Assembly (NCBI RefSeq): GCF_001413955.1
Contig: NZ_LCTZ01000002.1
Span: 1,784,501 to 1,848,500, forward strand
Source: Flagellimonas eckloniae
GTDB lineage: Bacteria > Bacteroidota > Bacteroidia > Flavobacteriales > Flavobacteriaceae
Direction of reading: 5' to 3'
Length of the DNA: 64,000 bases
The position numbers and the translations under genes were made by a program. Each line of letters begins with the position of its first letter. Position 1 is the first letter of the stretch. The notes below the pieces were generated by a model. It did no database searches. It was not told where the DNA came from and was given only the letters and a program-made list of their open reading frames with translations. Of the stretch, positions 15,410-57,787 are shown one piece after another.

Positions 15410-15416
15410 TTAAAAA

Positions 15417-15446: not shown

Positions 15447-15507
15447 TGTATATTTACGACATTCACAAAAATATCCCTGACAAACGACCAAAATAACATA
15501 TATCGGC

Positions 15508-16229: not shown

Positions 16230-18509
16230 TTATTTTTTTGGATTCGGACTCAGTTCCAACTCTAAAACGCCTCCTTTTACAATCTCATCATGGGTTATCC
16301 AATACCGTTTCAATGATTCTCCGTTAAGTTTAATTGATTGTATGTAGTTATTTTCTTTGGAATTATTCTTGGTAATTATGGTGAATTTTTTTCCAGAATA
16401 GTACTTAGAATCCAAGCCTATTTCTACCTGATCAAATACAGGGCTTGTAATCTGATATTTATTATCCCCTATTGAAGCTGGATAAATTCCCATCATGGAA
16501 TACACCAACCAAGCAGACATGGTCCCCGTATCATCATTCCCAGGAAGTCCATCAGGCTTGTTCTGAAAATACTTGGTCACTAATTCCTCTACTGTTTTTT
16601 GGGTGCGCCATTCTTCACCGGCGACATAGTTAAACCAATACGGATATGCAATATCGGGTTCATTGGCCATATCAAATTGATTGTCGTCAAACACTTTTTG
16701 TAATTGGATTGTGAAGTTTTTATCACCTCCCATCAATTTTTTAAGTCCTTTTATGTCATGGGGCACCATAAAGGCATACTGCCAGGCGTTCCCCTCTATA
16801 TAACCCACATTTTTTTCAAAATTGGCCCCTGCCAATGGATTAAAAGGTTCATAAAAAGTTCCATCAGAATTTCGGGGTCTTAGTAGATTATACTCCTTAT
16901 CAAATAGTTTTTTATAGGATAATGACCGTTTTCTATAGGTTTTATAATCCTTCGTTTTTCCCAATGCTTTTGCCAAAACGGCAATAGAATAATCCGCTGC
17001 ATTGTATTCCTGTGTTGTTGAGACCGAGCCTACATCTTCAGTTGTCAAATATCCTTTTCCCAAATAATTTTTAAGCCCGGGGCGCAATGGATTATCCTCA
17101 ATTTGATTTGCACTTTTCAACATGGCCAAATACGATTTTTGAACATCAAAATCCTGAATACCTTTTAAATAGGTGTCAGCAATGACAATGCTTGCTGGGT
17201 CCCCAACCATGGTAAAGGTTTCTGTGGAGTTTAATTCCCATTTTGGCAACCAACCATTTTCGTCATACATGGCCAACATACTTTTTACCATATTTGATTG
17301 TTGTCTGGGATATACCAAGGACATGAATTGATGTAAGTTCCTATAGGTATCCCATAGTGAAAACACCGTATATCTAGTTCCAGTAGTATTCCCTATTTTC
17401 CCTGTATTTATTTCAGGATAATCACCATTAAAATCGTTCAAGGTATTGGGGTGAATCAATGTATGGTACAGTGCCGTATAAAAGTTAATCTTGTCCTCTT
17501 TTGAACCACCTTCCACTTTTACTTTTGATAGTATTTGATTCCATTCCCCAAGGGTTTCTTCATAAACGGTTTCAAGTGATTTATTGGATGTTTCTTCCTC
17601 TAGATTTTTCCTTGCATTTTCAATACTGACATAGGATACGCCAATTTTCACCTCAACTGTTTCCTGTTTACTGAAAGTATACTTGAAATACGTTCCAATG
17701 CTATCGCCAACAATCATTCTTGTGGCATTGTCCATCATTCGCGTTTTTCCATTGTAGGTCATCCATTGGGCTTCTTCTCCTTCATACTTTCTGGGTTTCT
17801 TCCAAACTCCAAAACTGTCCGCAGGCTTTGAAAATTTAGCCACAAAATATACTGGATAAGCCGACTCTGGATTGTTGTAACAAAATGCACCTACAGTTCG
17901 CATACCTTCAATTTCTGAAGATGATACGACTTTGACCATGGCACCTTCTTCATTGGTAAGCCCAAGTCCCAAATTCAAAAGGATGTTGGATTCTCCAGCG
18001 GGAAACGTAAACCTGTTCACCCCAACTCGTTTTGATGTTGTGAATTCAGTTTTGATATTGTATTTATCCAATGTATTGCTGTAATAACCCGCTTTTGCCA
18101 CCTCATTGGAATAGGTTGAGCCGTATGATAAATGGTCCGTTTCCACCATGCCAGTAGTTGGCATGACCAAAATCACGCCTAAGTCTGGACAGCCTACGCC
18201 ACTAAGGTTTACTTGGCTAAACCCTGTTAAGAAAGTGTTTTCATGAACATATGGGTTGGAAAGCCATCTACTATCTTTTTCCAAAACATTTTGCTTACCC
18301 GCCACATTAAAAGGTGCTATGCTAACCATGCCCCTTGGCGCGACCGGCCCAGGATATGTTGCACCGAAATTGGATGTGCCAATAAAAGGGTTTACGTAAT
18401 CTGAAACTTCTTGTCCCTTTAATCCTATACTACAAAATAGCAAACAGATAATAGTTCCTGTTTTTACTCCTGATATTAATTTTAAGGTTTTAAGTATACT
18501 TTCTGACAT
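16230..18509 (-). CDS. GH92 alpha-mannosidase (copy A)
   Basis: 759 residues with an N-terminal export signal (about residues 15-33). Family GH92 landmarks: VNPFIGTSNFGATYPGPVAP at the start of the mature protein, SLWDTYRNLHQFMSL, IEGNAWQYAFMVPHD with the Glu likely to be the catalytic acid, and GNDDTGTMSAW near residue 660, which holds the base carboxylates. GH92 enzymes are calcium-dependent inverting exo-alpha-mannosidases. This copy has NDD where the other three have NED, and GTMS instead of GQMS, so linkage preference may differ. Its C-terminus resembles copy C (30473-32785). It is the last gene of the long operon, 20 bp after the GHL10-like gene. Confidence 0.93.
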   Translation of the reverse strand: MSESILKTLKLISGVKTGTIICLLFCSIGLKGQEVSDYVNPFIGTSNFGATYPGPVAPRGMVSIAPFNVAGKQNVLEKDSRWLSNPYVHENTFLTGFSQVNLSGVGCPDLGVILVMPTTGMVETDHLSYGSTYSNEVAKAGYYSNTLDKYNIKTEFTTSKRVGVNRFTFPAGESNILLNLGLGLTNEEGAMVKVVSSSEIEGMRTVGAFCYNNPESAYPVYFVAKFSKPADSFGVWKKPRKYEGEEAQWMTYNGKTRMMDNATRMIVGDSIGTYFKYTFSKQETVEVKIGVSYVSIENARKNLEEETSNKSLETVYEETLGEWNQILSKVKVEGGSKEDKINFYTALYHTLIHPNTLNDFNGDYPEINTGKIGNTTGTRYTVFSLWDTYRNLHQFMSLVYPRQQSNMVKSMLAMYDENGWLPKWELNSTETFTMVGDPASIVIADTYLKGIQDFDVQKSYLAMLKSANQIEDNPLRPGLKNYLGKGYLTTEDVGSVSTTQEYNAADYSIAVLAKALGKTKDYKTYRKRSLSYKKLFDKEYNLLRPRNSDGTFYEPFNPLAGANFEKNVGYIEGNAWQYAFMVPHDIKGLKKLMGGDKNFTIQLQKVFDDNQFDMANEPDIAYPYWFNYVAGEEWRTQKTVEELVTKYFQNKPDGLPGNDDTGTMSAWLVYSMMGIYPASIGDNKYQITSPVFDQVEIGLDSKYYSGKKFTIITKNNSKENNYIQSIKLNGESLKRYWITHDEIVKGGVLELELSPNPKK

Positions 18510-18529
18510 AAATTTGCCGTATTAAACAA

Positions 18530-19636
18530 CTATTCTTTTGATGTTTTTATGACTTCGAACTGCTCATCGGTAAGGGTGTAATCATCGAAGAATGCAACTC
18601 CGGAAGCTCCATTGTCTTTTGCGTATTGTATTGCCAATTTTAGGTCCTCAGGACTGAGTTTAGGAGTATACAATCCTGTGTGCAAATCAGTTGGTCTTCC
18701 TTTCAAATCTTCTACCCCTTGTGCCGTTGCATAGCCTATCCAATCCAACTCCTCATTATAAAAATTATAATAAATCATGGGCAATACAATATCAATATTC
18801 CATTTATCCCAACGTTGACGTACCATATAATCTGCCATTTCAGGATATGGAAAAACAGCAGCACTTAGTTTTTTATCATATTTATGAACCAAGGTATAGG
18901 CCTCATTTACTAGGGATTTTATCTCGTTCAAGCGAAAATTCTTCCACTCAATGTCTATGGCCGGATTTTCCATTTTTCTCGGGTCTTTATGATGAAGTGC
19001 CATAAATTTCTCCACACTGGCATCGGAATAATCGAAATCAAAATCCGGTAGTTCCTCCTCTTGTTTTAAATTATACTTTGGAAGCAGGCCGATGGGCAAA
19101 TAGACATCTGGATAGCGTATATAGTCGAGGTGAACACTAGCAACGCCCTCAACCTTGGCAAGACCTTCAATCAAGCTTAAAATGTGTTTTCTTGCATCAG
19201 GATGACTGGGTGAAAGCCATTGGTAATAATTTACATACGGACGTTCATCAAAGCAAGACTTCCCACTCCTACTGACCATATACCAATCTGGGTGTTGCAA
19301 AGCAATGGAATCCCCCGGCCGGTTGGTGGTAAACATCCAAGCATGTACTTCCAGACCCTCTTCAGTTGCCAAAGGTGCCACCCGTGCCAACAATTTTGGA
19401 TCGGCACCAGAATTTATAAGCACCGCGTCAATACCATATCCCTTCAATTTTTTGAAATGGGCCGTATACGCCGAATCCGACTTTTTATGCCCCACCGTAA
19501 TCCAGTTCCAATACTTAAATTTTGGTTCTTTTATGGTTACATCTTCCACCCCAGTAGTTTCCTTTGACTTTTCCTGAGTGTTGCAAGACATCAAGCCTAG
19601 CAAAAAACAATAAACAACTATTCGTATAATCTTCAT
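18530..19636 (-). CDS. GHL10-like putative glycoside hydrolase, lipoprotein
   Basis: About 368 residues from the ATG at 19634-19636, which gives MKIIRIVVYCFLLGLMSC and a lipidated Cys. A longer frame to 19666 overlaps the preceding gene. A TIM-barrel of the glycosyl-hydrolase-like 10 type (DUF187-related) is indicated by KYWNWITVGHKKSDSAYTAH, EGLEVHAWMFTTNRPGD, QWLSPSHPDARKHILSLIEG and VHLDYIRYPD. The conserved Asp of LDYIRYPD and an acidic residue on a later strand are candidates for catalysis. The activity of close relatives is not established to my knowledge. In this locus it is the only candidate endo-acting glycosidase; that is inference. Confidence 0.75.
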   Translation of the reverse strand: MKIIRIVVYCFLLGLMSCNTQEKSKETTGVEDVTIKEPKFKYWNWITVGHKKSDSAYTAHFKKLKGYGIDAVLINSGADPKLLARVAPLATEEGLEVHAWMFTTNRPGDSIALQHPDWYMVSRSGKSCFDERPYVNYYQWLSPSHPDARKHILSLIEGLAKVEGVASVHLDYIRYPDVYLPIGLLPKYNLKQEEELPDFDFDYSDASVEKFMALHHKDPRKMENPAIDIEWKNFRLNEIKSLVNEAYTLVHKYDKKLSAAVFPYPEMADYMVRQRWDKWNIDIVLPMIYYNFYNEELDWIGYATAQGVEDLKGRPTDLHTGLYTPKLSPEDLKLAIQYAKDNGASGVAFFDDYTLTDEQFEVIKTSKE

Positions 19637-19643
19637 ATCCAAC

Positions 19644-20714
19644 TTATTTTGATATAAACTTTCCATCTTCTTTTACTATCAATATTTTATCCGTGAACGG
19701 ACTTTTAATGCTAAGGTTCCAACCCGTACTGTGGTTTTCCAATATGGGTTCTAAAACCTTACCTTCTACCTGTATTTCTGTAGCCATCAAACTGTCTATT
19801 GAAGTAAAATAGGCTTCATGTTCTTTGAAATGTGCATTTTGAACACGGTACATCTTATATAGTTCCCATTTTATTTTTTCATCTTGAGGAATACTGAAAC
19901 TATCTTGTTGCCCTACTTCATTTGATGAAAAATATACATAGCCCCATTTTTCCGGTTCATGCATATTGATAACCCCCATGGGAGACCATACCCAATTGTA
20001 TTCATGTAATAGCTTCCCATGTGCGTCCTGCTTTCTTTCATAATTACCATCGGAAATTTGAAAATCCCAATTCACTCTGGAAAAATTGACTCTCCAAAAT
20101 TTATCTAATGGTATATTTTTTTTAAAATATCCTTTTTTATAGACCGCCCACGGAATTGCCATCTCCAAAACCCAACCCGTGTCTGTATCATTTGGATTGT
20201 TCAGTGTTCCGTTTACTTTAACCGCAGACTTTAATCCTGAAATATTCCAATCATTTAAAACCACATTTTCATTCCGGTAGGGTTTTGTTACAAACAAGTC
20301 CCAAACAGTGTTTAGGGCATTTACCTCCAACTCATAATAATTGTGCGTATCACTATCTGGATCTATAAACACTTCAAAATCATTATTGTGAAAAATAATG
20401 GTATCCCTTATTTTTAGACTTGCCCAAACGTGGGGTTCTTCCAATTTGGCCAGAATATAGAAATAGGTGTTGTCCCAAAGCATCTTCACCTGTGTTTTGT
20501 ACTTCGGTAGCTTAACGCCTTCTATATCGATAAAAGAATCAGACCAATCTGTTTTGCTCCAAGAATTATCTGAACCATCACCATCAATTTTTATTTTTTC
20601 AAGTGTTTTATAGGCTATATAACTTTTGGGCGTTGGTTCGTTTTTTGACTGGGCACAGCCAAACATTGAAAACCCAGCACACAACAAAATCAAAAACTCA
20701 AATTTTAAATTCAT
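19644..20714 (-). CDS. CBM9-like carbohydrate-binding lipoprotein
   Basis: 356 residues with a lipoprotein signal (CAGFSMFGC, Cys20). Residues about 30-260 match the family-9-like (DOMON-type) sugar-binding fold: KIDGDGSDNSWSKTDWSDSF, LWDNTYFYILAKLEEPHVW, HNNDFEVFIDPDSDTHNYYE, LEMAIPW and FWRVNFSRVNW. About 100 further residues lack a recognised domain. No catalytic motif is seen. It immediately precedes the GHL10-like gene, a pairing I have the impression of seeing in other Bacteroidetes. It probably holds glycan at the cell surface or in the periplasm. Confidence 0.78.
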   Translation of the reverse strand: MNLKFEFLILLCAGFSMFGCAQSKNEPTPKSYIAYKTLEKIKIDGDGSDNSWSKTDWSDSFIDIEGVKLPKYKTQVKMLWDNTYFYILAKLEEPHVWASLKIRDTIIFHNNDFEVFIDPDSDTHNYYELEVNALNTVWDLFVTKPYRNENVVLNDWNISGLKSAVKVNGTLNNPNDTDTGWVLEMAIPWAVYKKGYFKKNIPLDKFWRVNFSRVNWDFQISDGNYERKQDAHGKLLHEYNWVWSPMGVINMHEPEKWGYVYFSSNEVGQQDSFSIPQDEKIKWELYKMYRVQNAHFKEHEAYFTSIDSLMATEIQVEGKVLEPILENHSTGWNLSIKSPFTDKILIVKEDGKFISK

Positions 20715-20747
20715 AGACTCCCTATTATCCTCTCACATTCAAAATAT

Positions 20748-23081
20748 TTAATAGACCACAATCTCATCTACTGCTATTTTTGAAGGAACTCCAGCTTGGT
20801 GGTGTCCTTCCGGTATTGGGTTTACACTTTTTGCTTTTATTTTTATGGATTTCGCTACTGTTTTGTCAAAATCCACTATGTATGTAACTTTATTACGTCC
20901 TTGAATGATGCTCTGTTCCGTTTTATGGATTTCGCCCAATTTTGAGTAAGATTCCCCATTTTCCGAACCATAAACCTCCACATATTCTGGAATATAAAGA
21001 CCTCCGATGGTAAACCGTAGACAAGTCATTTCCATTTTCTCAATCTTTGAGGGTTTCGCAAAAATCAAATCCACTTCCAAATCCCCTTTTATCGTTTGCC
21101 AATTGGAATCCCATCTATGGAGTTTTCCATAGTTTAAATCCACCAGTTTATCAATTTCGTCTTTTTCTTTAGGGTTCACAGCCTCTGAATGATACACTAC
21201 CTTGGCACCAAAAGCCATGTGTATAGGAAAATGTTTTTCTGATATATTTCCATCCTGTTTTCCATTTAAAAAACTGGTCGCCTTTAAGGTGGCGGTGCTA
21301 TCAACACTAAATTCCCCTTCATATTTGATTGAACTCAAGGTTGGTTCATTACCATCCAGGGTGTAATATATCTCCAAATCTTCCACCTCAGTTTTTAAGG
21401 AGATGTCAACAGCTCCTGTCCCAGTACCCTCATGGTCAATTTTTACATTAAAGGCACTTGTGGCATATCGTGTGCCTTGTTCATCAAAGCGTTTAAATTG
21501 ATAAAGTAAACGTGATGTAAACCCTTTCCAGTTTTTATGTTTCTCCTGCGTCCAGCCATTTTCTGCAATGGCATACAAGCGCGGAAATGTCATATAGGTA
21601 AGCTTGCCCCAATCGCTGATGGACTCCGTCCATAAATTTCCTTGCACTCCTAAAACATGTTTTCCTTGTGCTTCGGTTAAACTGTCTGATACAATATTAT
21701 AATAATAGGCATCTTTCAGAAAACTGTAGGCATACCCCAAATTAGGTTCTAGGTCGTCATCACCTTGTTTTAAATCGAGATAGCAATATTTAAAGGGTGT
21801 CATGATTACATCATGACCTGCTCTTGCAGCGGCAATACCTCCTTTTTCACCACGCCAAGACATTACTGTTGCATTCGGCGCTAGACCTCCTTCCAAAATC
21901 TCATCCCAACCAATCATTTTTTTATTGCGGGCATTGACCATCTTTTCCACACGCTTAATAAAATAGCTCTGTAGTTCATCTTCATTGGCAAGGTTTTCAT
22001 CTTTAATTCGCTTTTGACAATCTGGATCTGCTTTCCACGCTAGTTTATTACATTCATCACCTCCAATATGGACATATTCAAATGGGAAAAGTGTTGTGAC
22101 CTCATCCAACACACCTTCCACAAATTCATAAGTTACCTCCTTACCAGGGCAATAGGTGTTATCTTTTGAAACACCACCGGTCCCTACATAAAAAGGACCT
22201 CCTGTGCATGATATTTCTGGATAGGATGCAATAGCGGCCAAAGAATGTCCGGGCATATCAATCTCCGGAATTATTTCAACATAACGCTCTTTGGCATAGG
22301 CCACGATCTCCTTTATATCCTCCTGGGTATAAAAACCACCATAGGTGGCTTTATCCCCTTCTTTTTGAACAGGTCTTCCCCACCAATTGGAAACACTTTC
22401 ATCAGTTACATTGTAATCCACCCTCCAAGCTCCAATTTCTGTTAACTTGGGATACTTTTTAATTTCCAAACGCCATCCCTGGTCATCTGACAAATGCCAA
22501 TGAAAGCGATTCAATTTAATCTCGGCCATAAAGTCAATTACGTCCTTGATCTGTTCCTTATCAAAAAAATGACGGGAAACATCCAGCATATAACCTCTCC
22601 AGCCAAAAGCAGGTTTATCCTTTATAGTAACTGCAGGCACGCCCCAAACAACATTGGGCTGTTCTTTTGTTGAATAGAATGATGTGGGAAGTAGTTGTTT
22701 TAAACTCTGCAAAGCATAGAAAAAGCCTGCTCCCGAAGCAGCTTTTATCTGTATTTTGGTTGTATCCACTTGGAGCTTGTACGCTTCATTTTCCATGGAG
22801 GCATCAGTGCTTAAAGAAATAGTCCCTTTGTCCGTTCCTCGCTGAATTTCCGGAACCCATCTTGATACGGTTTCAAATTGGTTGAAAAACCTAGTAGCTA
22901 TTTCTTGTTGCTCTTCGTTTTCAACAGCAACAATAGTATTTGCATTGATTTCAAAATATCCTTGGCCCTCTATTAAATCAGCTGGTAAAGGGGTTATGGA
23001 AATTTCGCCTAAAAGCAATTCTTTATTAGCGCATGACGCAAGCAATAAAAACCCTATAAGCCCAAATACAAATCTCTTCAT
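20748..23081 (-). CDS. GH20 beta-N-acetylhexosaminidase with F5/8-type C-terminus
   Basis: 777 residues, lipoprotein signal (IGFLLLASC, Cys17). An N-terminal GH20b domain (about 25-150) precedes the TIM-barrel with RFHWHLSDDQGWR (about 192-204), EIIPEIDMPGH and the catalytic pair Asp342-Glu343 in HIGGDECNK. GH20 enzymes cleave terminal beta-GlcNAc or beta-GalNAc by substrate-assisted catalysis. After the barrel come a chitobiase-like Ig domain (IYYTLDGNEPT) and a discoidin-like module (about 640-777, LYIPEYVEVYGSENGESYSK). Its start overlaps the stop of the GH92 gene at 23078 by 4 bp, showing translational coupling. Confidence 0.94.
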   Translation of the reverse strand: MKRFVFGLIGFLLLASCANKELLLGEISITPLPADLIEGQGYFEINANTIVAVENEEQQEIATRFFNQFETVSRWVPEIQRGTDKGTISLSTDASMENEAYKLQVDTTKIQIKAASGAGFFYALQSLKQLLPTSFYSTKEQPNVVWGVPAVTIKDKPAFGWRGYMLDVSRHFFDKEQIKDVIDFMAEIKLNRFHWHLSDDQGWRLEIKKYPKLTEIGAWRVDYNVTDESVSNWWGRPVQKEGDKATYGGFYTQEDIKEIVAYAKERYVEIIPEIDMPGHSLAAIASYPEISCTGGPFYVGTGGVSKDNTYCPGKEVTYEFVEGVLDEVTTLFPFEYVHIGGDECNKLAWKADPDCQKRIKDENLANEDELQSYFIKRVEKMVNARNKKMIGWDEILEGGLAPNATVMSWRGEKGGIAAARAGHDVIMTPFKYCYLDLKQGDDDLEPNLGYAYSFLKDAYYYNIVSDSLTEAQGKHVLGVQGNLWTESISDWGKLTYMTFPRLYAIAENGWTQEKHKNWKGFTSRLLYQFKRFDEQGTRYATSAFNVKIDHEGTGTGAVDISLKTEVEDLEIYYTLDGNEPTLSSIKYEGEFSVDSTATLKATSFLNGKQDGNISEKHFPIHMAFGAKVVYHSEAVNPKEKDEIDKLVDLNYGKLHRWDSNWQTIKGDLEVDLIFAKPSKIEKMEMTCLRFTIGGLYIPEYVEVYGSENGESYSKLGEIHKTEQSIIQGRNKVTYIVDFDKTVAKSIKIKAKSVNPIPEGHHQAGVPSKIAVDEIVVY

Positions 23082-25300
23082 AATCCTAAATTTATTAACT
23101 CCCTATTCGGTTCAGCACCTAGTACAAAATGAAGTTCTCCACCATCAATAATTTGCTGATGGGTTATAGTTAGTTGCTGATAAGGTTTTCCGTTTAAGGT
23201 AATTTCTTGTATGTAACTATTAGTTTTGGATTGATTTTCCACACTTATCTTGAATTGCTTTCCATTTTCCAAATCAATTACGGCTTCTTCAAAAAGCGGT
23301 GATGTCAAACTATAGATACCATCTGCCGGGTTTGTTGGATACATGCCCAAAGATGAAAATACCAACCAGGCCGACATTTGTCCACAGTCCTCGTTACCGC
23401 AATACCCGTCAGGTTCCGTGCTATACTGGGTCTCAATAATCTTGCGAACCATTTGTTGCGTTTTCCAGGGTTTGCCAATAGCATTGTATAAGTACGATAC
23501 ATGATGACTAGGCTCGTTTCCATGTGCATACTGCCCAATCATTCCCGTACTAAAAATGGGCAATTTATCCCCAGCTGTTGGGTAATAGGTAAACATGGAG
23601 TCGAGTTTCTGTTCAAAACGTTTCTTGCCTAAAGTATCTATCAAGTCATTCATGTCATGGGGTACAAACCAGAAATACTGCCAGGCATTACTTTCACAAA
23701 ATTCCCTGGTATATGCTTTTGGAGAAAACGGAGAACTAAAATTTCCATCTTTATCTTTAGGGCGGAAAAATGTCGAAGAATCATCGTATAGGTTTTTCCA
23801 ATTATCCGCTCTTTTTAAAAATATTTTTTCCGTTTCATTTTCGCCAAGCGCTTTGGCCAACCGGGCTATACACCAGTCGTCATAGGCATATTCCAAGGTT
23901 TTTGAAACCGACCAATTTTCGTGGTCTTCACCAGTGGGAACATAACCCAGTTCCATATACATATCTATCTGCCTTCCTTTCTCAGTCGCCGAAGCCACGC
24001 AGACCCTCAATGCTTTTTCGGCATCCATGGGGATTCCTTTAAAATAGGCATCCACAATGACCGGAACTGCATGGTAACCGATCATCATATTGGTCTCATT
24101 TCCGGCCATGGACCAAACAGGGAGCAGGCCCGTTTCATCATAATGGGATAAAAACGACTTGATTATGTCCTCGGTTTCCCTTTGATTCAATAAGGTATAC
24201 AGCGGGTGTGTGGCCCTAAAGGTGTCCCAAAGGGAAAAGGTATCATATTTATTGTAGCCCTCAGCCTTATGTACCTTGCCATCTGCACCCTTATAGTCTC
24301 CATCCACATCACTGTGCAATGAAGGTGTTAGGTAGCAATGGTACATATTCGTATAAAAAAGTTCTTTTTGTGCTTTTGTCCCTTCCACCTTGATTTTTGA
24401 CAAATACCTTTCCCACATATTCTTGGCATTGGATACGGTTTGGTCAAAATCCCAATGTGGCATTTCTGCTTCCAGGTTTTTACGGGCTCCCTCAATACTT
24501 GCCGAGGAAAGTGCAACCTTGACCAATATTTCCTCACCCATTTCCGTACTATAATTTGCCGCAAATCGTGTGAACTTTCCATTTACCGAAGTGGTATCTT
24601 TTTGTTCTGAATTTTGGGACAATTGTATATTTTCAAATGGCTTTGAAAACTTGGCCACAAAAAACACCCGTTGATCCCTGGCCCAGCCCGTTGATTTTCG
24701 ATATCCTGAAATGGTTTGCCCATCTTCAATGGTTATCTTGGTATCCACAGGGGCATCCCAATTGAGACTATAGCCCAAATCAAGAATAAGTTGACTGTTT
24801 TTATCCTCTGGAAATGCATATCGATGGAATCCCACCCTGGAAGTGGTGGTAAGTTCTGCCTTGATCCCCGAACTCAATAAATCGACGGCATAGTATCCAG
24901 GGCTTGCTTCTTCCTTATCGTGTGAGAACTTAGAATAGGGTCGATATCTTCCTTCTTGGGTCAAGCTTTCGGTAAACCTACTGTTTAAGGGCATCAATAA
25001 TAAATCATACATATCCCCTGCACCAGTTCCGGACAAGTGGGTATGGCTAAATCCGGCTATGGTTGAATCCGGCCAATAATAGCCCGCAATCCTATCCCAT
25101 CCCGGAAGTCCATTATCCGGGCTCAATTGTACCATTCCAAAGGGCAAAACGGCACCTGGATAGGTGTTTCCAGGACCGTCCGTACCCGTGAATGTGTTCA
25201 CGTAGCCTGTTAATTTTTCCTTTTCAGGAACCACATCTTTTTCTTTACATGACCAATGGCCAAGCAGTAAAATGAAAACTATAAGTATGTGTTTTTTCAT
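23078..25300 (-). CDS. GH92 alpha-mannosidase (copy B), lipoprotein
   Basis: About 740 residues. The ATG at 25298-25300 is chosen because it gives a signal MKKHILIVFILLLGHWSC; the longer frame to 25432 runs into the preceding GH20 gene. Landmarks: GYVNTFTGTDGPGNTYPGAV, SLWDTFRATHPLYTLLN, CESNAWQYFWFVPHD (Glu as likely acid) and GNEDCGQMSAWLVFSSLGMYP near the C-terminus. The NEPSHHVSYLYN block is complete. This copy groups by eye with copy D (50223-52472), sharing DETGLLPVW-like and ITHQQI-GGELHFV blocks. It is an exo-alpha-mannosidase anchored to a membrane; the linkage cannot be read from sequence. Confidence 0.93.
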   Translation of the reverse strand: MKKHILIVFILLLGHWSCKEKDVVPEKEKLTGYVNTFTGTDGPGNTYPGAVLPFGMVQLSPDNGLPGWDRIAGYYWPDSTIAGFSHTHLSGTGAGDMYDLLLMPLNSRFTESLTQEGRYRPYSKFSHDKEEASPGYYAVDLLSSGIKAELTTTSRVGFHRYAFPEDKNSQLILDLGYSLNWDAPVDTKITIEDGQTISGYRKSTGWARDQRVFFVAKFSKPFENIQLSQNSEQKDTTSVNGKFTRFAANYSTEMGEEILVKVALSSASIEGARKNLEAEMPHWDFDQTVSNAKNMWERYLSKIKVEGTKAQKELFYTNMYHCYLTPSLHSDVDGDYKGADGKVHKAEGYNKYDTFSLWDTFRATHPLYTLLNQRETEDIIKSFLSHYDETGLLPVWSMAGNETNMMIGYHAVPVIVDAYFKGIPMDAEKALRVCVASATEKGRQIDMYMELGYVPTGEDHENWSVSKTLEYAYDDWCIARLAKALGENETEKIFLKRADNWKNLYDDSSTFFRPKDKDGNFSSPFSPKAYTREFCESNAWQYFWFVPHDMNDLIDTLGKKRFEQKLDSMFTYYPTAGDKLPIFSTGMIGQYAHGNEPSHHVSYLYNAIGKPWKTQQMVRKIIETQYSTEPDGYCGNEDCGQMSAWLVFSSLGMYPTNPADGIYSLTSPLFEEAVIDLENGKQFKISVENQSKTNSYIQEITLNGKPYQQLTITHQQIIDGGELHFVLGAEPNRELINLGL

Positions 25301-25314
25301 TTCCCTTTGTCCGT

Positions 25315-28913: not shown

Positions 28914-28947
28914 TGTCTCATTAATTTGGTATACTTAATTTTTGCTG

Positions 28948-30450: not shown

Positions 30451-30472
30451 ATACCTGTGGTAGTTCATATTT

Positions 30473-32785: not shown

Positions 32786-32791
32786 ACTATT

Positions 32792-40937: not shown

Positions 40938-40973
40938 TACCGTCGTGTACTGTAAAAACTTCATTATTTACCT

Positions 40974-42566: not shown

Positions 42567-42589
42567 TTTCTTTTAATTAAAATACTAGG

Positions 42590-44188: not shown

Positions 44189-44200
44189 GCCAAATATCAA

Positions 44201-45715: not shown

Positions 45716-45721
45716 TGTTCC

Positions 45722-47329: not shown

Positions 47330-47359
47330 ATTGGAATCTTTACATTTTTCGTTCACTTA

Positions 47360-48325
47360 CTAAAGACTATTTTCCTTGGTAAACTGAATTACCTCGCTCA
47401 ATCTTCCAAAAACGAGGGCAACAACGGTATCAGCCGCTCCATAATAGATTGCGAGTTTATCCTCCTCGCTATCGTGAAGTGCAGCACACGGGAAAACTAC
47501 GTTGGGTACATCCCCAATTTGCTCATATAATTCTGACGGCCCCAACAAATAGGGTTGTGTTCTATATTTCACTATATCTGGTTGATGTTCATCCAAAATG
47601 GCAGCTCCCATAGCATATCGAAATCCATTACATGTATTTATAACTCCATGATACAGCATTAACCAACCATCGTTTGTGAGAATAGGAATTGGGCCTGCTC
47701 CTACTTTTGTACATTGCCAAGCACTATCCTCAAAATTCGTTGCCTTCATCACGCAGCGATGCTCCCCCCAATATTTCATATCTGGGCTGTAACTTATATA
47801 GATATCTCCAAATGGGGTATGACCATTATCACTTGGTCGACTCAACATGGCATATTTGCCATTGATTTTTTTGGGAAACAATACTCCATTTCTATTGAAA
47901 GGTAGAAAAGCATTCTCACACTGAAAAAATTCCTTGAAATCGAAGGTATAGCCAATTCCAATAGTGGGGCCATGATAACCGTTGCACCAGGTAATCCAAT
48001 ACCTGTCCTCTATAAAAACAACCCGTGGATCGTATTTATAATCAGAATCTATCATTTGGGTATTCCCAGCTTTCATCTGTATGGGGTCGTGGTTTATATC
48101 CCAATGGATACCATCCTTACTAAAACCAGCAAAAATGTTCATCTGAACGGCTTTGTTGTCGCATCTAAAAACACCTGCAAAGCCATCTTTATATTCTACA
48201 ACAGCACTGTTGAAAATGCTATTGGATGAAGGAATTGCATATCTATCTATTATAGGGTTGGCACTGTAGCGCCATAAAATATCTTTCCAATTATTTGGCT
48301 TATCCTGCCAAGGAATCAAATTCAT
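47360..48325 (-). CDS. GH130 beta-mannoside phosphorylase
   Basis: 321 residues, no signal peptide, hence cytoplasmic. The five-bladed propeller of GH130 is indicated by [36 protein letters not shown] (Asp99, candidate catalytic acid), [20 protein letters not shown] and [22 protein letters not shown]130 enzymes phosphorolyse beta-1,4-mannosides. In N-glycan loci such as that of Bacteroides thetaiotaomicron the substrate is Man-beta-1,4-GlcNAc, giving mannose-1-phosphate and GlcNAc. The next gene upstream, 8 bp away, is a sodium symporter that could bring the disaccharide in. Confidence 0.92.
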
Positions 48326-48333
48326 ATGTGTTT

Positions 48334-50211: not shown

Positions 50212-50222
50212 TTTTGGTTTGG

Positions 50223-52472
50223 CTATTTAGTAATTCCCCAATTTTCATTAGGGATATTTCCCATAACAAAATGAAGCTTCCCTCCCTCTGTTATTTGTTG
50301 GTGTGAAATTGTTGTTTGATTAAACGGGTTTCCATTGAGTGTTGCCGATTGTATGTAAATATTATCCTTGGAAACATTCTCAGCTTCAATTGTAAATTTT
50401 TTGTCTTTGGAAACACGTATAGTTGCCTTTTCAAAAATTGGGCTTCCAATCTCATATTCCGTTGAAGCCGGGTTCATGGGATACAGACCTATTGAACTCA
50501 ATACGTACCATGCACTCATTTGACCGCAATCCTCATTACCACTCAAACCATTTGGAGTGGTATTGTACTGCGTATTCAAAATATGGTGTGCCCAATATTG
50601 TGTTCGCCATGGTTTATTGGCATGATTAAATAAATAAGCGATATGGTGACTTGGTTCATTACCATGTGCATACTGGCCAATTAAACCTGAGATATCCACT
50701 GAGGCATTATTCCCTGTTATCTCAGAACTTTCGGTAAAAAGTTGTTCTAAGCGTTCCGAAAAAATTTCATTGTTTCCATGGAGGGACACGAAATCTTTAG
50801 GGTCATGTGGCACAAACCAGCTATGTTGCCATGCATTACCTTCTGTATAATCCGTATGTTCTCTATGGTTTGAATATTTTGGGTCGAAAGGTTCGTTCCA
50901 TGAATTTCCGTCAACCGATTTACCTCTCATAAACCCGGTCTCTTCATCAAATAAATGTTGATACGCCCTGGAACGGTTTAAAAAGAACTTATAATCTTCC
51001 TCTTTACCCAAAGCTTTTGCCATTTGTGCAATACACCAATCATCATAGGCATATTCCAAAGTAATTGTCACTGATTCGTCCATTGCTGTGTACGGGATAT
51101 AACCGTGCTTTTTATAATATTCCAATCCCCGCTCATCTTGCATCATGGTCGTTTTCATCGCTTCATAGGCTTTTTTGGCATCAAAACCCTTAATTCCTTT
51201 TAGGTATGCCTCAACAATCACTGGAATGGAATGATAGCCCGTCATTGTATTTGTTTCATTGGCATAAAGTGTCCAAACAGGAAGTATCTTTTTTGTCTCA
51301 TAATAAGAGAGCATGGTATTCACCATATCCGAAACCCTATCTGGCGCAACCAATATGAGTAATGGGTGCTCTGCTCTAAATGTATCCCAAAGGGATAAGG
51401 TTGAATATGCTGTATAATTTTCTGCTGTAACTATACTGTCATCTTCTTTTCTGAATTGGCCATTTTTGTCGCTAAATGTCACAGGTGCCAATTGAGAATG
51501 GTACAACGAAGTATAAAAGATAGTTTTGAGGGAATCTATTGCGGTTTCCACCTCAATTTTTGATAACGCGCTTTTCCAGGTATTTTCTGCCTCTGCTTTT
51601 ACTTTTTCAAAATTGAAACCTCTACCATCCAAATTCTCTTTTGCATTGTCAATACTTACTGAGGAAAGGGCCACTTTCACAAAGAGTTCATTGTCCTCTT
51701 TTTCGTTAAAAAATAACTGTACGGCTGTTTTTGTACCCATACCCATATTGGCATTTACAGCTCTTTTATCTACATACACATTGTGTTCAGCAATAGCTTT
51801 GGAAAACTTGGCAACAAAAAACACTTTTTGATTTTTTGCCCATCCAGTACTAAACCGGTAACCACTTATGGTAGAATCATTTTCAACTTGAAAAGAAGTT
51901 TTGGTTGCCTTATCCCAATTGATGCCAAAACCCAAATCCACAACAACTGATTGTATATCTTTTGGTTGATATGAATATTTATGTATTGCCGTTCGCTTGG
52001 ATGTTGTTAATTCAACATTTATATGATGATCTTCAAGAAAGACTTGATAATAGCCGGGGTGTGCTTCTTCGTTTGTGTGGCTGTAAGATGATTTATAGGA
52101 CAGTGAATCGCGAGAAATGGGCATTGTTGACAAATCCACTTTTTTGTTTATAGGCATAAACAATACATCCGCTAAATCTCCAATACCTGTTCCACTTAAA
52201 CTTAAATGACTGAAACCAATGGCTATAGAATCTGAATAATGATATCCCGAACACCAGTCCCAACCACTTATCCCATTTACCGGACTAACCTGAAGCATTC
52301 CAAAAGGAACGGTTGCCCCTGGATACGTATGTCCATGTCCACCTGTTCCAATAAAAGGATCCACAAAATCAACCAAAGATTTTTGATTGCGATTTTTTTG
52401 TGCCGTTTTTTCGTTACAGCCCAAAAAGAAAAGAACCAATATCAATAAACAGAATAACGAAGTGTATTTCAT
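50223..52472 (-). CDS. GH92 alpha-mannosidase (copy D), lipoprotein
   Basis: 749 residues, lipoprotein signal (LILVLFFLGC, Cys19). Landmarks: DFVDPFIGTGGHGHTYPGAT, SLWDTFRAEHPLLILV, YTEGNAWQHSWFVPHD (Glu as likely acid), NEPSHHIAYLFN and GNEDCGQMSAWYVLSSIGLYP. It groups by eye with copy B. As the first gene after the SusCD hairpin it heads the twenty-gene run. Exo-alpha-mannosidase by family; linkage unknown. Confidence 0.93.
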   Translation of the reverse strand: MKYTSLFCLLILVLFFLGCNEKTAQKNRNQKSLVDFVDPFIGTGGHGHTYPGATVPFGMLQVSPVNGISGWDWCSGYHYSDSIAIGFSHLSLSGTGIGDLADVLFMPINKKVDLSTMPISRDSLSYKSSYSHTNEEAHPGYYQVFLEDHHINVELTTSKRTAIHKYSYQPKDIQSVVVDLGFGINWDKATKTSFQVENDSTISGYRFSTGWAKNQKVFFVAKFSKAIAEHNVYVDKRAVNANMGMGTKTAVQLFFNEKEDNELFVKVALSSVSIDNAKENLDGRGFNFEKVKAEAENTWKSALSKIEVETAIDSLKTIFYTSLYHSQLAPVTFSDKNGQFRKEDDSIVTAENYTAYSTLSLWDTFRAEHPLLILVAPDRVSDMVNTMLSYYETKKILPVWTLYANETNTMTGYHSIPVIVEAYLKGIKGFDAKKAYEAMKTTMMQDERGLEYYKKHGYIPYTAMDESVTITLEYAYDDWCIAQMAKALGKEEDYKFFLNRSRAYQHLFDEETGFMRGKSVDGNSWNEPFDPKYSNHREHTDYTEGNAWQHSWFVPHDPKDFVSLHGNNEIFSERLEQLFTESSEITGNNASVDISGLIGQYAHGNEPSHHIAYLFNHANKPWRTQYWAHHILNTQYNTTPNGLSGNEDCGQMSAWYVLSSIGLYPMNPASTEYEIGSPIFEKATIRVSKDKKFTIEAENVSKDNIYIQSATLNGNPFNQTTISHQQITEGGKLHFVMGNIPNENWGITK

Positions 52473-52773: not shown

Positions 52774-54486
52774 TTACCAACCTGGGTTTTGATCCAGGTT
52801 TGGATTAAGGATTAATTCATCTAATGGTATAGGCAATAAATAAACTCTAGTCTCGTCAAAATTGAAATTTCCTGTTGCTGCGAAAGGTAAAATATAACCA
52901 TCCGCATCCAGCGTTACACTTGTTGGAGCCAATTCAACATTCACAATGCCATCGTCATAAAAAGCTCCTCTAGGTTGATCACCATCAATAAGCGCATGCG
53001 CTCTCCATCTATATATGTCATTGGCCCTAAACCCTTCTGCCATAAGTTCAACAGAACGTTCTCTTCTTATCTCATAGAGAACATCCGATAAAGTATAGCC
53101 ATAGTTAGGCCAATCTGGATCCGCAGTAATTGCTCCCAAAGTCATGCTTGGCATACTTACACGGGCTCGTAATAGATTTATGGATTTATCCAAATCTCCC
53201 TGGGTGATTGATCCTAATTCTGCCTTGGCTTCTGCAAAAATTAATAGGACCTCAGCATAACGCATTATTATTCTAGAGGTCTCTCTAGTAAAGTTGCTAC
53301 GATCAGCATCAATATTCACATCCCTGTATTTTTGGGACTCATATCCAGTAAGACCTGCGTTGGCAGTAGTAAAATCTGGATTAGCCCAAAGAATTTCACT
53401 ATCATCGGTATCTTTCACCAAAACATCACCAGGCACCATAATAGTGGCCGCAAGTCTTGGGTCCCTATTGTCCTCTATAGTTGATAGGTCCTGATCTCCT
53501 TGATAAAGAGGACTTACCGAAATAGGATCACCATCGGTACATAAATAACTACGGACGGCAAATCTTGTATAGCCACATCTGTTTGGCCAAGACAGTTGAA
53601 GAACATTATTAATGCCCAAGTTTAGATCATCATAGTCTCTCCAAAGCATTACCTCACTGTTGCCACTCAATCCAATTTGATTAAAAAGCGAACCATAGTC
53701 ACTATGCAATGAAAACACACCACTATCCATTATATCTTCTGCAGTTTCAGCGGCAATTTGTAAATAAGAGGTGCCATCGGAGCCGACAACGCCGAAATCA
53801 GTTCCATTATGATACTTTTCCCAAGTACCTTCATAAAGGGCTACCCTGGCTTTTAGCAGTTGCGCAGCTTCCTTACTTATGCGGGGATTCCCATCAATTT
53901 CTGGAAAAGATTGTAGCATAGATATGGCCATGTCCAAATCAGCAATGATAAAATCCGCCACTTCATTTCGAGGGTTTCTTGGTGCAAAAACAAATTCTTC
54001 ATCTTGATCCGTAAAATATTGGTCAAAAATTGGTGCTGCACCATAGCGTTCCAATAAATTAACATAGTGATAAGCTCTAAAGAAAAAACCTTCACCCCTG
54101 TATTGATTAATCAGTACTTCATCCCCTTCAGCTTGTAATGAACGGTCTAAAAAAAAGTTGGTCTCTCGAACCTCATCAAAACTCCATACTGTATTGCTAG
54201 CTGACGTAGGGACATCTAAACTTATACCACTGAGTCTATTACTGGGATTTTCAGCAGTACCCATGTCCTCACTCATATCTGGCAGCACATTGAAGCCAAC
54301 ACTTGTGGACTGCCATCCAGGAAGATCGGCATAAAAGGCATTAGCGGCGGTTCTTAAATCTTGAGGCGTTTTATAGAAGGAAGCTTCCGTTATAGTATCT
54401 AAAGGTGTTCTTTCCAAGAAGTCGTCATCGCAAGACGAAAGACAAATCAGTGAACACAAAACGAATGTCTTAAATATATTTTTCAT
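52774..54486 (-). CDS. susD: SusD-like glycan-binding lipoprotein of the mannose/HexNAc PUL
   Basis: 570 residues, lipoprotein signal (LCSLICLSSC, Cys19) followed by DDDFLERTPLDTITEASFYK, the hallmark SusD start with an acidic surface-export-like stretch. Helical repeat blocks (YRGEGFFFRAYHYVNLLERY, LYEIRRERSVELMAEGFRAN) and the ending LLPIPLDELILNPNLDQNPGW are typical. It covers the SusC pore encoded 10 bp upstream and binds the incoming glycan. It shows little likeness to the alginate SusD apart from family motifs. Confidence 0.94.
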   Translation of the reverse strand: MKNIFKTFVLCSLICLSSCDDDFLERTPLDTITEASFYKTPQDLRTAANAFYADLPGWQSTSVGFNVLPDMSEDMGTAENPSNRLSGISLDVPTSASNTVWSFDEVRETNFFLDRSLQAEGDEVLINQYRGEGFFFRAYHYVNLLERYGAAPIFDQYFTDQDEEFVFAPRNPRNEVADFIIADLDMAISMLQSFPEIDGNPRISKEAAQLLKARVALYEGTWEKYHNGTDFGVVGSDGTSYLQIAAETAEDIMDSGVFSLHSDYGSLFNQIGLSGNSEVMLWRDYDDLNLGINNVLQLSWPNRCGYTRFAVRSYLCTDGDPISVSPLYQGDQDLSTIEDNRDPRLAATIMVPGDVLVKDTDDSEILWANPDFTTANAGLTGYESQKYRDVNIDADRSNFTRETSRIIMRYAEVLLIFAEAKAELGSITQGDLDKSINLLRARVSMPSMTLGAITADPDWPNYGYTLSDVLYEIRRERSVELMAEGFRANDIYRWRAHALIDGDQPRGAFYDDGIVNVELAPTSVTLDADGYILPFAATGNFNFDETRVYLLPIPLDELILNPNLDQNPGW

Positions 54487-54496
54487 GATTTTTTTT

Positions 54497-57400
54497 TTAA
54501 AATGATACGTTTAGACCTAGTGAGACAATCTTGGACAATGGGTAGGACTGTGCACTACCAAATGTACCCGCTGTAACTATTTCAGGGTCAAAAAACAAGA
54601 GATCATCAATAGTGATAAGGTTTTCACCCGTTGCAAATAACCTAATCGTGTTAATACCAAACTTTTCAGTAGTTTCCCTAGGGATAGTATATCCTATTTG
54701 CAAACTCTTTAATCGTGCATAAGCTCCATTTTGTATATACCTATCTACAGCATACCGATAATTTCTGTTATTTCTGCCCGGATTTGCCGTATATGGAGCT
54801 GGAAAATAGGCATCGGTATTTGGTCCTAAAGGGCTTTCTGTGTCAGCAGCTCTAAAATAATCCAAATGTTCTTCCCACACGTTAATATGGAATGGACCCT
54901 GTCCAGGACCTCTAAATCTTTGGTGATTTGACAACAATACATCGCGTTTTCCCACACCTTGAACCAACATATTAAAATCAAAGTTTTTGTAATTCATAGC
55001 CAAGGTTGCAGAATATTGATATCGCGGCGTGGAATTTCCAATAATATCCCAATCTCCAGTGTCACCCACAACAAATTCCCCTCTGTCAATTACACCATCA
55101 TCATTAAGGTCTTTGTATTTGGTATCTCCTGCTTCAAAATCTCCATTTACAAAAGATTGATCTATGGGATAGGTATCATACTCATCATCTGTTTGGAACC
55201 AACCATCCCACTGTAATCCCCAAATTTCTCCAAGATCTTGACCTTCATAAAATGATTGTGCCAAAGAGCCTGTTTCGTTAGGATATTCTACCATTGTTCT
55301 TTGGTAATCTGATAATACTCCTCTTATGCTAAAACCAAAATCCCCGAATTGCTGTCTCCACGAAGCTTCCACTTCCCATCCTTCAACTCGCGATGTTCCT
55401 ATATTTGTCAAAGCAGCAGAGGTACCTAGCTGAGAAGGTAAATCCAACCCTTGCGCCGCTATACCCTCAATATCCGTTCTATACCAAGAAAAGGCTACAT
55501 CGAGTTTATTGAACGCTTGAAGGTCAAAGCCAATGTCAGTGGTTTTGACTGTCTCCCATGTTAAATTTTGGGTAACTAAATCTGGCGTATCAGAGGATAC
55601 TTCTTGCTGCCCATTAAATAAGAAAGACCCTCCTGGTGAATTTATATCTATGGTAGATAAATATTGGTTAAGAGGAACATTTTGATTCCCCAAAGTACCA
55701 TAGGACCCCCTCAACTTAAAGGTTTGTATGGCATCAATAGGCCAAAAATCCTCTCTTGCAACATTGTATCCAGCAGAATAACTAGGGAAGCCAGACCATC
55801 TGTTATCTGGTTCAAATCTTGATGAGCCATCCCTTCGATAACTAAATTCCAATAAATACTTTTCTTTGTAATTATATCTGAACCTACTAAAAACACTTTG
55901 GGTTGCCCAATGTGTTATAGTTTCATTTACTTCTTGAAGATCATCTAATGAAGCATTTAAAGAGACTATGTTATTCGTAACTAAAAAATCCGTTTGTCCG
56001 TTTAAGGCATGGAATTTATTTACCTCACTTTGATAACCAGCAAGTACGTCTATATTATGATTTCCAAGTGACGCATTGTATGTGGCAAAAAGGTTTGGGG
56101 AAAAATATTCTTGGTTTTGAAACGTTACACCATAAAAAGTACTGGCTTGAACGGGCGCATCAATTAAGCCTTGAGGCCTTATCACTTGATTTGATAGAAT
56201 GCTTGACTCCAGGGTATTATTGTCTCTTCTGTAATTTAAGTTGGCATTAAACTTTAAATTTTTAATAGGTTCAATAATAATTCGAGGCAATAAAACAAGT
56301 TGATCGTTCTCCGTTGTAGAACGCTGCGTATCCCAAAACATGAAATAATTATGTTGCAATTGACCCGAACCGTATATTGGGTCTACTAAAGGAATACCTG
56401 GCTTTAATTTTGAAATTAAATCCAATGCCCTAGATTTATTTCTTGCATTCGTATCTCCAGCCGATGCTATAGGAAAATCAGAATTGCTTTTTCTTAATTT
56501 AGTCAAAAGTTCTAAGGTCAACCAATCTTTAGGCTTGGCTGAAATTTTGGCATCCACATTATATCTCTGGAAAGATTCATCACCAACCTTTAAGAGCCCA
56601 TCTTCATCATAAGCACCAACCGATAAGTAATAATTCAATTCTTCGGTTCCTCCACTAAGACTTAGATTATGCTTGGTACGTTGTGCCCACTTCTTTAGAA
56701 TAACTTCCTCCCAGTTTGTGGCACCTGTTGCATCAATCCCAATAGAAGAATAACTCCAGTTCGTATTTGCCGCATTTGCTGTAATACTAGGAGCACTTCC
56801 AGGGTTTTCCATATTTGCCAGAATATTCGCCAAATCCGTTTCATCATGATATGGATTTTGATTATTGTTTATTCGAGCATCATTTACTGCATAGGCAAAG
56901 TTGATTGGACTTGCATTTTTTGGCCATCTTGTAGGTTTGGTAAATGAAACACTTGTACTGTAATTTACTCTCATTTTTCCATTACTGTTCTTACCACTTT
57001 TGGTTATAACCAATACGGCTCCACCTGCAGCACGGGAACCATATATAGAAGCGGCTGCAGCATCTTTAAGTACAGAAACAGATTCTATATCCTCTGGATC
57101 AATATCATTTAAGCTTTGTTCAATACCATCAATAAGTACTAATGGACCGGCATTACTTATACCACTGTTTTCAGTAAGATCCGTAGTTATAAAACCACGA
57201 ATATTAATGTTTGATGGTGCACCAGGTTCACCACCAGACGAAGAGTTGGTAATCTGCAGACCAGGCACAGTTCCTTGTAACGATCTAAAAGCGTTAGCTG
57301 TAGGTCTGTTTTGAAAAACCTCAGCTCCCACTTGAGATACGGCTGCAGTTAAATTCACCTTCTTCTGTGTACCATATCCTACAACCACAACTTCATCAAG

Positions 57401-57787
57401 TATGGATGTATCTTCTTCAAGCGTTACATTTAGATTTGTTTGATTGCTTATTGCTATTTCCTTGGTAGCAAAACCTATATAGGTAAATACCAGAGTAGCT
57501 CCGTCCGGTACGGAAATGGTATAGTTACCATCAAAATCTGTTTGGGTACCATTAACAGTACCTTTTTCAACAATACTGGCTCCCGGAAGTGGATTGCCAT
57601 CCGCATCTGTTACAACACCTGTAACTTGCTGTTGCACTGTTTTAGCTTTGTTCAACATTTTCCCATCTTCAACATCATTGGGCATAAACCCAAATACCGT
57701 TGTAAAACTGAGAAAAACAAAGACTTTCGTAAAAATCAATACTCTTCTTCTAAGATAAGGAAGAGCGCTGTTTGGTTTGGTTCTCAT
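54497..57787 (-). CDS. susC: SusC-like TonB-dependent receptor of the mannose/HexNAc PUL
   Basis: 1096 residues. A longer than usual N-terminus with a hydrophobic signal (about 14-35) precedes a CarboxypepD_reg-like domain (about 54-130, VTGVVTDADGNPLPGASIVE), the linker ILDEVVVVGYGTQKK, a plug domain (FRSLQGTVPGLQI; VSVLKDAAAASIYGSRAAGG) and a 22-strand-type barrel ending LSKIVSLGLNVSF. It is the outer-membrane importer for the glycan attacked by the twenty enzymes downstream. A 549-bp upstream region separates it from the LytTR regulator gene and carries the candidate activator site. Confidence 0.95.
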   Translation of the reverse strand: MRTKPNSALPYLRRRVLIFTKVFVFLSFTTVFGFMPNDVEDGKMLNKAKTVQQQVTGVVTDADGNPLPGASIVEKGTVNGTQTDFDGNYTISVPDGATLVFTYIGFATKEIAISNQTNLNVTLEEDTSILDEVVVVGYGTQKKVNLTAAVSQVGAEVFQNRPTANAFRSLQGTVPGLQITNSSSGGEPGAPSNINIRGFITTDLTENSGISNAGPLVLIDGIEQSLNDIDPEDIESVSVLKDAAAASIYGSRAAGGAVLVITKSGKNSNGKMRVNYSTSVSFTKPTRWPKNASPINFAYAVNDARINNNQNPYHDETDLANILANMENPGSAPSITANAANTNWSYSSIGIDATGATNWEEVILKKWAQRTKHNLSLSGGTEELNYYLSVGAYDEDGLLKVGDESFQRYNVDAKISAKPKDWLTLELLTKLRKSNSDFPIASAGDTNARNKSRALDLISKLKPGIPLVDPIYGSGQLQHNYFMFWDTQRSTTENDQLVLLPRIIIEPIKNLKFNANLNYRRDNNTLESSILSNQVIRPQGLIDAPVQASTFYGVTFQNQEYFSPNLFATYNASLGNHNIDVLAGYQSEVNKFHALNGQTDFLVTNNIVSLNASLDDLQEVNETITHWATQSVFSRFRYNYKEKYLLEFSYRRDGSSRFEPDNRWSGFPSYSAGYNVAREDFWPIDAIQTFKLRGSYGTLGNQNVPLNQYLSTIDINSPGGSFLFNGQQEVSSDTPDLVTQNLTWETVKTTDIGFDLQAFNKLDVAFSWYRTDIEGIAAQGLDLPSQLGTSAALTNIGTSRVEGWEVEASWRQQFGDFGFSIRGVLSDYQRTMVEYPNETGSLAQSFYEGQDLGEIWGLQWDGWFQTDDEYDTYPIDQSFVNGDFEAGDTKYKDLNDDGVIDRGEFVVGDTGDWDIIGNSTPRYQYSATLAMNYKNFDFNMLVQGVGKRDVLLSNHQRFRGPGQGPFHINVWEEHLDYFRAADTESPLGPNTDAYFPAPYTANPGRNNRNYRYAVDRYIQNGAYARLKSLQIGYTIPRETTEKFGINTIRLFATGENLITIDDLLFFDPEIVTAGTFGSAQSYPLSKIVSLGLNVSF

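Follow-up and report, generated by a model that had tools for sequence, protein, structure and literature searches.

A probable utilization locus for sulfated N-glycans, formed by two merged modules, in Flagellimonas eckloniae

Two kinds of described glycan-use loci come closest to the locus analyzed here, a polysaccharide utilization locus (PUL) in a 64,000-nucleotide stretch of the Flagellimonas eckloniae genome (the window: positions 1,784,501 to 1,848,500 of contig NZ_LCTZ01000002.1, G000:C2:1784501-1848500 in our numbering, in a 4.13 Mb genome of two contigs). The system for plant N-glycans in gut Bacteroides shares with it SusCD and the glycoside hydrolase (GH) families GH92, GH20, GH29, GH3, and GH130, and one of the Bacteroides loci has a sulfatase (PMC9522356). 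In contrast to those scattered loci, the window holds a single run with six sulfatases, a GH95, and a GHL10-CBM9 pair, and no PNGase or GH18. The type A PULs of North Sea Flavobacteriia (PMC6298971) and the PUL for the sulfated mannan of diatoms (PMC13063451) are likewise marine and contain GH92 and sulfatases, to which the window adds GH20, two GH29, GH95, GH130, and GHL10, with no GH99-like endo-mannanase seen. Marine flavobacterial PULs with GH92 and sulfatases have been linked earlier to glycoproteins, glucuronomannan, or host glycans (PMC6298971, PMC9723552, PMC10877868), and N-glycosylated glycoproteins were proposed as possible targets of GH92-rich PULs (PMC6298971). The overall kind of locus is already known; its novel parts are the GHL10-CBM9 pair and a hint of L-galactose. 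We propose that this PUL of a marine, probably seaweed-associated host arose by the merging of two modules and probably serves the use of a sulfated N-glycan carrying fucose and/or L-galactose.

Gene content and family membership were observed directly: we called open reading frames (ORFs) in the window and scanned the 35 that reach 150 aa with Pfam. A 20-gene run occupies the minus strand from 16230 to 52472, with SusD (52774-54486) and SusC (54497-57787) at its upstream end; the gap to SusD measures 301 bp. The ORF calls bear out a preliminary description of this DNA, which had SusCD followed by twenty genes on one strand and no gap above 34 bp, and Pfam returned every family counted there: four GH92, two GH20, two GH29, one each of GH95, GH3, and GH130, and six S1 sulfatases, all six with the C-X-P-[ST]-R activation motif. 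The three remaining genes of the run encode an SSF symporter, a GHL10 (PF02638) protein, and a CBM9 (PF06452) protein, and the last two are the ones that the description left unnamed. The locus thereby contains both alpha-mannosidases (four GH92) and beta-hexosaminidases (two GH20), as looked for in an N-glycan utilization locus. The features, in window coordinates, are:

16230..18509, minus: GH92a alpha-mannosidase, last gene of the putative N-glycan module (PF07971/PF17678; position kept in relatives)
18530..19666, minus: GHL10 protein with lipobox-like N-terminus and TIM barrel, candidate core-cleaving enzyme (PF02638)
19644..20714, minus: CBM9 protein with lipobox-like N-terminus, GHL10 partner (PF06452; AlphaFold2 model matches CBM9 structures)
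20748..23081, minus: GH20a beta-hexosaminidase (PF00728)
23078..25432, minus: GH92b alpha-mannosidase (PF07971; the listed GTG start, giving a 118 bp overlap, is probably too far upstream)
25315..27618, minus: GH20b beta-hexosaminidase with PA14, sulfated-glycan module (PF00728, PF07691)
27615..28913, minus: GH29a (PF01120)
28948..30468, minus: S1a sulfatase (Pfam; nearest solved chain the S1_15 sulfatase 9bas)
30473..32785, minus: GH92c alpha-mannosidase, sulfated-glycan module (PF07971)
32792..35482, minus: GH3 with PA14 (Pfam; nearest solved structure beta-xylosidase 7zb3)
35483..36847, minus: S1b sulfatase (Pfam; nearest solved arylsulfatase A)
36844..39174, minus: GH95 (PF22124)
39171..40964, minus: S1c sulfatase (Pfam; nearest solved 6bia and iota-carrageenan sulfatase 6b0k)
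40974..42566, minus: S1d sulfatase (Pfam; nearest solved exo-L-galactose-6-sulfatase 7lha)
42590..44200, minus: GH29b (Pfam; nearest solved exo-alpha-L-galactosidase 7lnp)
44201..45715, minus: S1e sulfatase (Pfam; no close solved relative, best 156 bits)
45722..47356, minus: S1f sulfatase (Pfam; nearest solved mucin-desulfating sulfatase 7p24)
47360..48325, minus: GH130, no apparent signal peptide (nearest solved UHGB_MP)
48334..50211, minus: SSF symporter, proposed Man-GlcNAc importer (PF00474; adjoins GH130 in relatives)
50223..52472, minus: GH92d alpha-mannosidase, first gene of the putative N-glycan module (PF07971)
52774..54486, minus: SusD (PF07980/PF14322)
54497..57787, minus: SusC (Pfam scan)
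58337..59050, minus: LytTR response regulator (Pfam; homolog in 60 of 80 named loci)
59102..60157, minus: His_kinase sensor (Pfam; homolog in 66 of 80 named loci)

Synteny in relatives resolves the PUL into two modules. In the window, module 1 consists of GH92d, SSF, and GH130, of CBM9, GHL10, and GH92a, and of the histidine kinase/LytTR pair. GHL10 relatives occur in 70 of 299 genomes of the same family, two of them weak. From 311 candidate GHL10 loci in named genomes we kept the best 80 and counted genes in 10 kb flanks by identity thresholds to window or example proteins, absences being lower bounds. The order histidine kinase/LytTR, GH92d, SSF, GH130, CBM9, GHL10 is kept, often followed by GH92b, glycosylasparaginase, GH20a, and GH92a. 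Particularly, 79 of the 80 loci have CBM9 upstream of GHL10 at a distance of at most two ORFs, and 64 have GH130 upstream of it at a distance of at most three; among 20 further loci, hand-picked across the identity range, CBM9 stands beside GHL10 in 18 and GH130 in 13. Moreover, 52 of the 80 loci contain a homolog of glycosylasparaginase, 15 one of PNGase F, and six one of GH18. The example proteins checked by Pfam were two of the glycosylasparaginase family (PF01112), two GH18, of which one also matches the EndoS TIM barrel, a GH125, a GH2, and one PNGase F (PF09112 and PF09113). Glycosylasparaginase and PNGase F both act at the GlcNAc-Asn link (GlcNAc, N-acetylglucosamine). Because relatives often carry glycosylasparaginase, PNGase F, or GH18, module 1 is best read, on gene content, as an N-glycan operon. 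The N-glycan is thus better supported than the preliminary description allowed: its N-glycan-like, sulfated, and fucosylated glycan stands, while its reluctance to name an N-glycan seems too cautious for module 1, given these marker enzymes in the loci of relatives. The GH130 protein aligns best, among solved structures, with UHGB_MP (318 residues, 494 bits), which we take to act on Man-beta-GlcNAc. Some GH130 enzymes split this link (PMC10154615). In Yeosuana aromativorans, two loci of the same genome (L120 and L045) form an apparent tandem duplication of GH130-CBM9-GHL10 in which one GHL10 piece is short.

Module 2 comprises SusCD, S1f, S1e, GH29b, S1d, S1c, GH95, S1b, GH3, GH92c, S1a, GH29a, and GH20b, and that this sulfatase/fucosidase set is separable is a point absent from the preliminary description. 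We observed it away from module 1 in three other genomes, G236, G011, and G212. In G236 all 14 genes lie together, with SusC 62% and SusD 59% identical to those of the window; an ECF sigma/FecR pair precedes them, and GDSL-type, sulfatase, and DUF2961 genes come in addition. Around the cassettes of G011 and G212, 11 and nine of the 22 window PUL genes, respectively, are found at an identity of at least 55% (SusC 62 and 36%, SusD 62 and 39%); across the three separate cassettes GH20b is 67-70% and GH92c 79-85% identical. The genes stand in the window's order with one exception: S1a and GH92c have changed places in each of the five other genera examined. The cassette adjoins or sits within the core in G173, G121, and G229. 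In the window, module 1 encloses module 2, and from SusC onward all genes share one direction; the same holds in G229, a member of the same genus in which the 22 PUL genes keep their order at 90-99% identity (GHL10, 98%). In G173 and G121 module 2 follows module 1 on the same strand, with SusCD on the other strand beyond the regulators. Other genera show the gene set again in an almost unchanged order, so its assembly is not due to chance. The high-identity GHL10 clade spans 11 genera, eight of which have cassette genes within the flank; S1f homologs are present there in 16 of the 21 loci with a GHL10 at least 73% identical and in none of the 59 others, a contrast whose Fisher test ignores relatedness. 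S1e is found at 64% identity or more in seven of the 299 family genomes, the source genome included (up to five candidates scored per genome), so the combined PUL is uncommon.

Several other loci touch on this cassette. The source genome has a second sulfatase PUL (L167, G000:C2:326000-345999), in which a 47%-identical S1e paralog stands beside S1a- and S1b-like sulfatases, and a PUL with SusCD, a GH115-type gene, the genome's fifth GH92, and a GH29-like gene (L138, G000:C2:1465000-1484900). Between S1f and S1e of another locus lies a DUF5703 protein with weak GH95 similarity (L063:16100-18403), possibly a distant GH95-like enzyme, and ORFs of similar length, judged by length only, occupy that position in L066, L067, and L145. 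A 710 aa protein without a Pfam match lies in the sulfatase region of L059 (L059:17155-19287), and its copy at L074:18094-20226 looks alike.

Leads on the sugars attacked by the cassette come from the nearest solved structures by homology. The adjacent genes S1d and GH29b are each closest to one half of an exo-L-galactose-6-sulfatase (7lha) and exo-alpha-L-galactosidase (7lnp, 7ljj) pair: S1d matches 7lha with 408 bits against 367 and 342, and GH29b reaches 252 bits with its best match, compared with 147 for the top GH29 named as a fucosidase outside the L-galactosidase group (7lnp, 7ljj). Presumably 7lnp, 7ljj, and 7lha belong to porphyran breakdown. The homology is moderate, however, and unlike a porphyran system the window showed no porphyranase: Pfam scans of its 35 ORFs found no porphyranase or agarase (GH16, GH86), the Pfam coverage of GH86 being unchecked and the search confined to the window. 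With no porphyranase seen in the window, we set a porphyran PUL aside. S1f is nearest to 7p24, next to 9s03 and the GlcNAc-6-sulfatase 5g2v, and for S1a the GalNAc-6-O-sulfatase 6s20 is also near, besides 9bas. Since a mannose-6-sulfate sulfatase is another member of S1_11, the subfamily of 5g2v and 7lj2 (PMC13063451), S1f and S1d may each act on GlcNAc-6-sulfate, L-galactose-6-sulfate, or mannose-6-sulfate. In gut Bacteroides, a GH3 beta-1,2-xylosidase acts on plant N-glycans (PMC9522356). Sulfate on N-glycans has been placed on mannose or core fucose in arthropods and Dictyostelium and on galactose in oyster (PMC6994554). As sulfated N-glycans of invertebrates and Dictyostelium are described (PMC6994554, PMC8724618), the target structure need not be new, contrary to the suggestion that it may not have been described.

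The window GHL10 scores 45 bits against PF02638, whose curated cut-off is 27.9, and its model shares the fold of Cwp19, a characterized GHL10 member, at 15-19% identity over the aligned part; the model also matches PgaB, solved with GlcNAc and GlcN. A search of PDB sequences with GHL10 gave a best E of 0.019. Residues D181, D187, D210, and D292 are invariant across 43 sequences down to 33% identity, any catalytic role being hypothetical. Although family and fold are the same, Cwp19 sits on cell-wall binding repeats, whereas the window protein sits in a glycan-use operon beside CBM9. We presume DigH to be a further GHL10 member. Because its own genome gave no GH18, GH85, DUF4838, or PNGase F match, we infer that GHL10 is a candidate for cutting the GlcNAc-GlcNAc core. 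Our literature search for GHL10 together with N-glycans found none. At L052 and L053, CBM9-GHL10 pairs of about 42-44% identity stand alone, with no relative of any other window PUL gene inside 20 kb; the pair thus also occurs independently.

The absences of enzyme families are direct results of profile searches. The preliminary description had listed no GH18, GH85, GH76, GH99, GH2, GH35, or sialidase gene, and our Pfam scans of the window agree; the search for GH76, GH99, GH2, GH35, and sialidase was confined to the window. Genome-wide, GH18 (PF00704) had no match in the source genome and matched six of 14 control genomes, GH85 (PF03644) had none and matched one control, and DUF4838/GH163 (PF16126) had none and matched one control below the cut-off. 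For PNGase F, PF09113 matched neither the source genome nor any control, and PF09112 had matches in eight of 14 genomes searched and none in the source genome. No known releasing enzyme (PNGase F, GH18, GH85) was found in locus or genome.

Several observations weigh against a sulfated N-glycan as the target. The window PUL has no glycosylasparaginase, and the genome's sole PF01112 match lies about 0.33 Mb away; the flanks of 14 of the 80 loci lack all of GH130, glycosylasparaginase, PNGase F, and GH18 (L057 only through flank length). Second among the solved matches of GH130, with 451 bits, comes a beta-1,4-mannooligosaccharide phosphorylase, and GH130 is therefore not diagnostic by itself. 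In 21 of the 80 loci PNGase F or GH18 occurs alongside GHL10, which weakens the case for GHL10 as a mere substitute for these enzymes, and GH42 enzymes fit the GHL10 model as well as PgaB does. The anSME maturase profile (TIGR03942) had no match in any of four genomes, the source included, and matched 12 of 14 controls, two of them over the cut-off; the aerobic FGE was outside the search. The main weakness lies in the separate cassettes. G236 has no GH130 match, GHL10 match, or PNGase F; G011 has a GH130 match of only 33% and no PNGase F; G212 has no PNGase F, and its GH130, an 81% match, belongs to a separate core operon (L174, G212:C33:15000-34999), which holds CBM9, GH130, and SSF, without GHL10 between CBM9 and GH92a. 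The cassette can therefore exist without module 1, and, as two of these genomes have neither PNGase F nor a close GH130, its glycan need not be N-linked.

The same three genomes, with their own SusCD and, in G236, the ECF sigma/FecR pair, favor the idea that the cassette targets a free sulfated polysaccharide or exudate of algae containing fucose and mannose, with the N-glycan module merely co-located or co-regulated, one operon thus serving two substrates. An alginate PUL next to the locus marks an algal lifestyle and points the same way. We nevertheless consider this rather unlikely: by Pfam the window cassette has no endo-acting polysaccharide depolymerase, cassette genes adjoin the core in most genera of the high-identity clade, as counted above, and the cassette GH20 and GH92 fit N-glycan antennae. 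A type A PUL for sulfated alpha-mannan, of the kind that serves Polaribacter and Formosa on diatom mannan, would account for GH92 and sulfatases (PMC6298971), the more so as S1_11 reaches mannose-6-sulfate (PMC13063451), yet it leaves GH20, GH29, GH95, GH130, and GHL10 unexplained. The described mannan cascade of four enzymes relies on an S1_51 sulfatase and on a GH195 endo-mannanase with a distant relationship to GH99 (PMC13063451), and no GH99-like match was found by Pfam in the window, where GH195 may have no model; we regard this option as very improbable. Plain substrates were rejected too, as a high-mannose N-glycan leaves the six sulfatases, GH95, and two GH29 unexplained and fucoidan leaves GH92, GH20, and GH130; Pfam showed no endo-fucanase (GH107, GH168, and similar families) in the window, though it may lack models for these. 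Another alternative concerns the core-cleavage step only and is compatible with the rest: GHL10 and CBM9 may act on peptidoglycan or another N-acetylhexosamine (HexNAc) polymer. Cwp19 cleaves peptidoglycan (PMC6016235) and DigH acts on it (PMC12288456), and CBM9-GHL10 pairs without a nearby GH130 exist (e.g., L042, L050, L051, L052, and L053), but the proximity of GH130 in 64 of the 80 loci speaks against this role, which we find doubtful.

Returning to the sulfated N-glycan, the pathway could run as follows; each substrate, above all that of the GHL10 step, and the compartments are what we infer, with GH130, SSF (inner membrane), and the N-termini of the other proteins, lipobox or signal-like, as the sole clues to compartment. 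SusCD would import the anionic glycan, from which the six sulfatases, two GH29, GH95, GH3 (perhaps on beta-xylose), and two GH20 would strip sulfate, deoxy- and L-sugars, xylose, and HexNAc, and the four GH92 would trim alpha-mannose. GHL10, helped by CBM9, would then cleave the core at GlcNAc-beta-1,4-GlcNAc, which would either free the chain from the protein or split the chitobiose of a chain already released. Man-beta-1,4-GlcNAc may finally pass the inner membrane through SSF and undergo phosphorolysis by a cytoplasmic GH130.

The adjoining alginate PUL (window 1251-16227) contains, by Pfam, a PL7-type lyase, SusCD, a PKD protein, PL17-like and PL6-like genes, an FCD-GntR regulator (1251-1970), an RraA-like gene (15508-16227), and a 504 aa protein (3065-4579) without a Pfam match even at E 1. 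No NCBIfam profile exceeded its curated cut-off with ten proteins, the Rfam gathering scan of the whole window gave no match, and the tRNA scan found none. Between 52300 and 60400, scans returned 29 promoters (29.6 expected) and eight terminators (5.9 expected). Literature searches for a sulfated N-glycan PUL or algal sulfated N-glycans found no description of the two-module locus, in a coverage that mostly leaves out subscription journals.

The locus offers a concrete gene set for a little-studied marine carbon source, sulfated glycoprotein glycans, and shows the combination of a sulfatase-free N-glycan operon with a sulfated-glycan PUL. Its candidate enzyme pair, GHL10-CBM9, stays together in nearly all of the best 80 of 311 named loci, and if GHL10 does cleave the core of N-glycans, glycoproteins beyond the reach of PNGase F and GH18 enzymes would have a new tool enzyme. 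In its boldest form, which we advance tentatively and think unlikely to hold in full, CBM9-GHL10 would be a new N-glycan core-cleaving system unlike GH18, GH85, and PNGase, joined in an operon of two movable modules to a cassette that strips 6-sulfated alpha-L-galactose caps, fucose, xylose, and sulfated GlcNAc from an undescribed type of N-glycan, and by this means marine Flavobacteriaceae would eat sulfated glycoprotein glycans.

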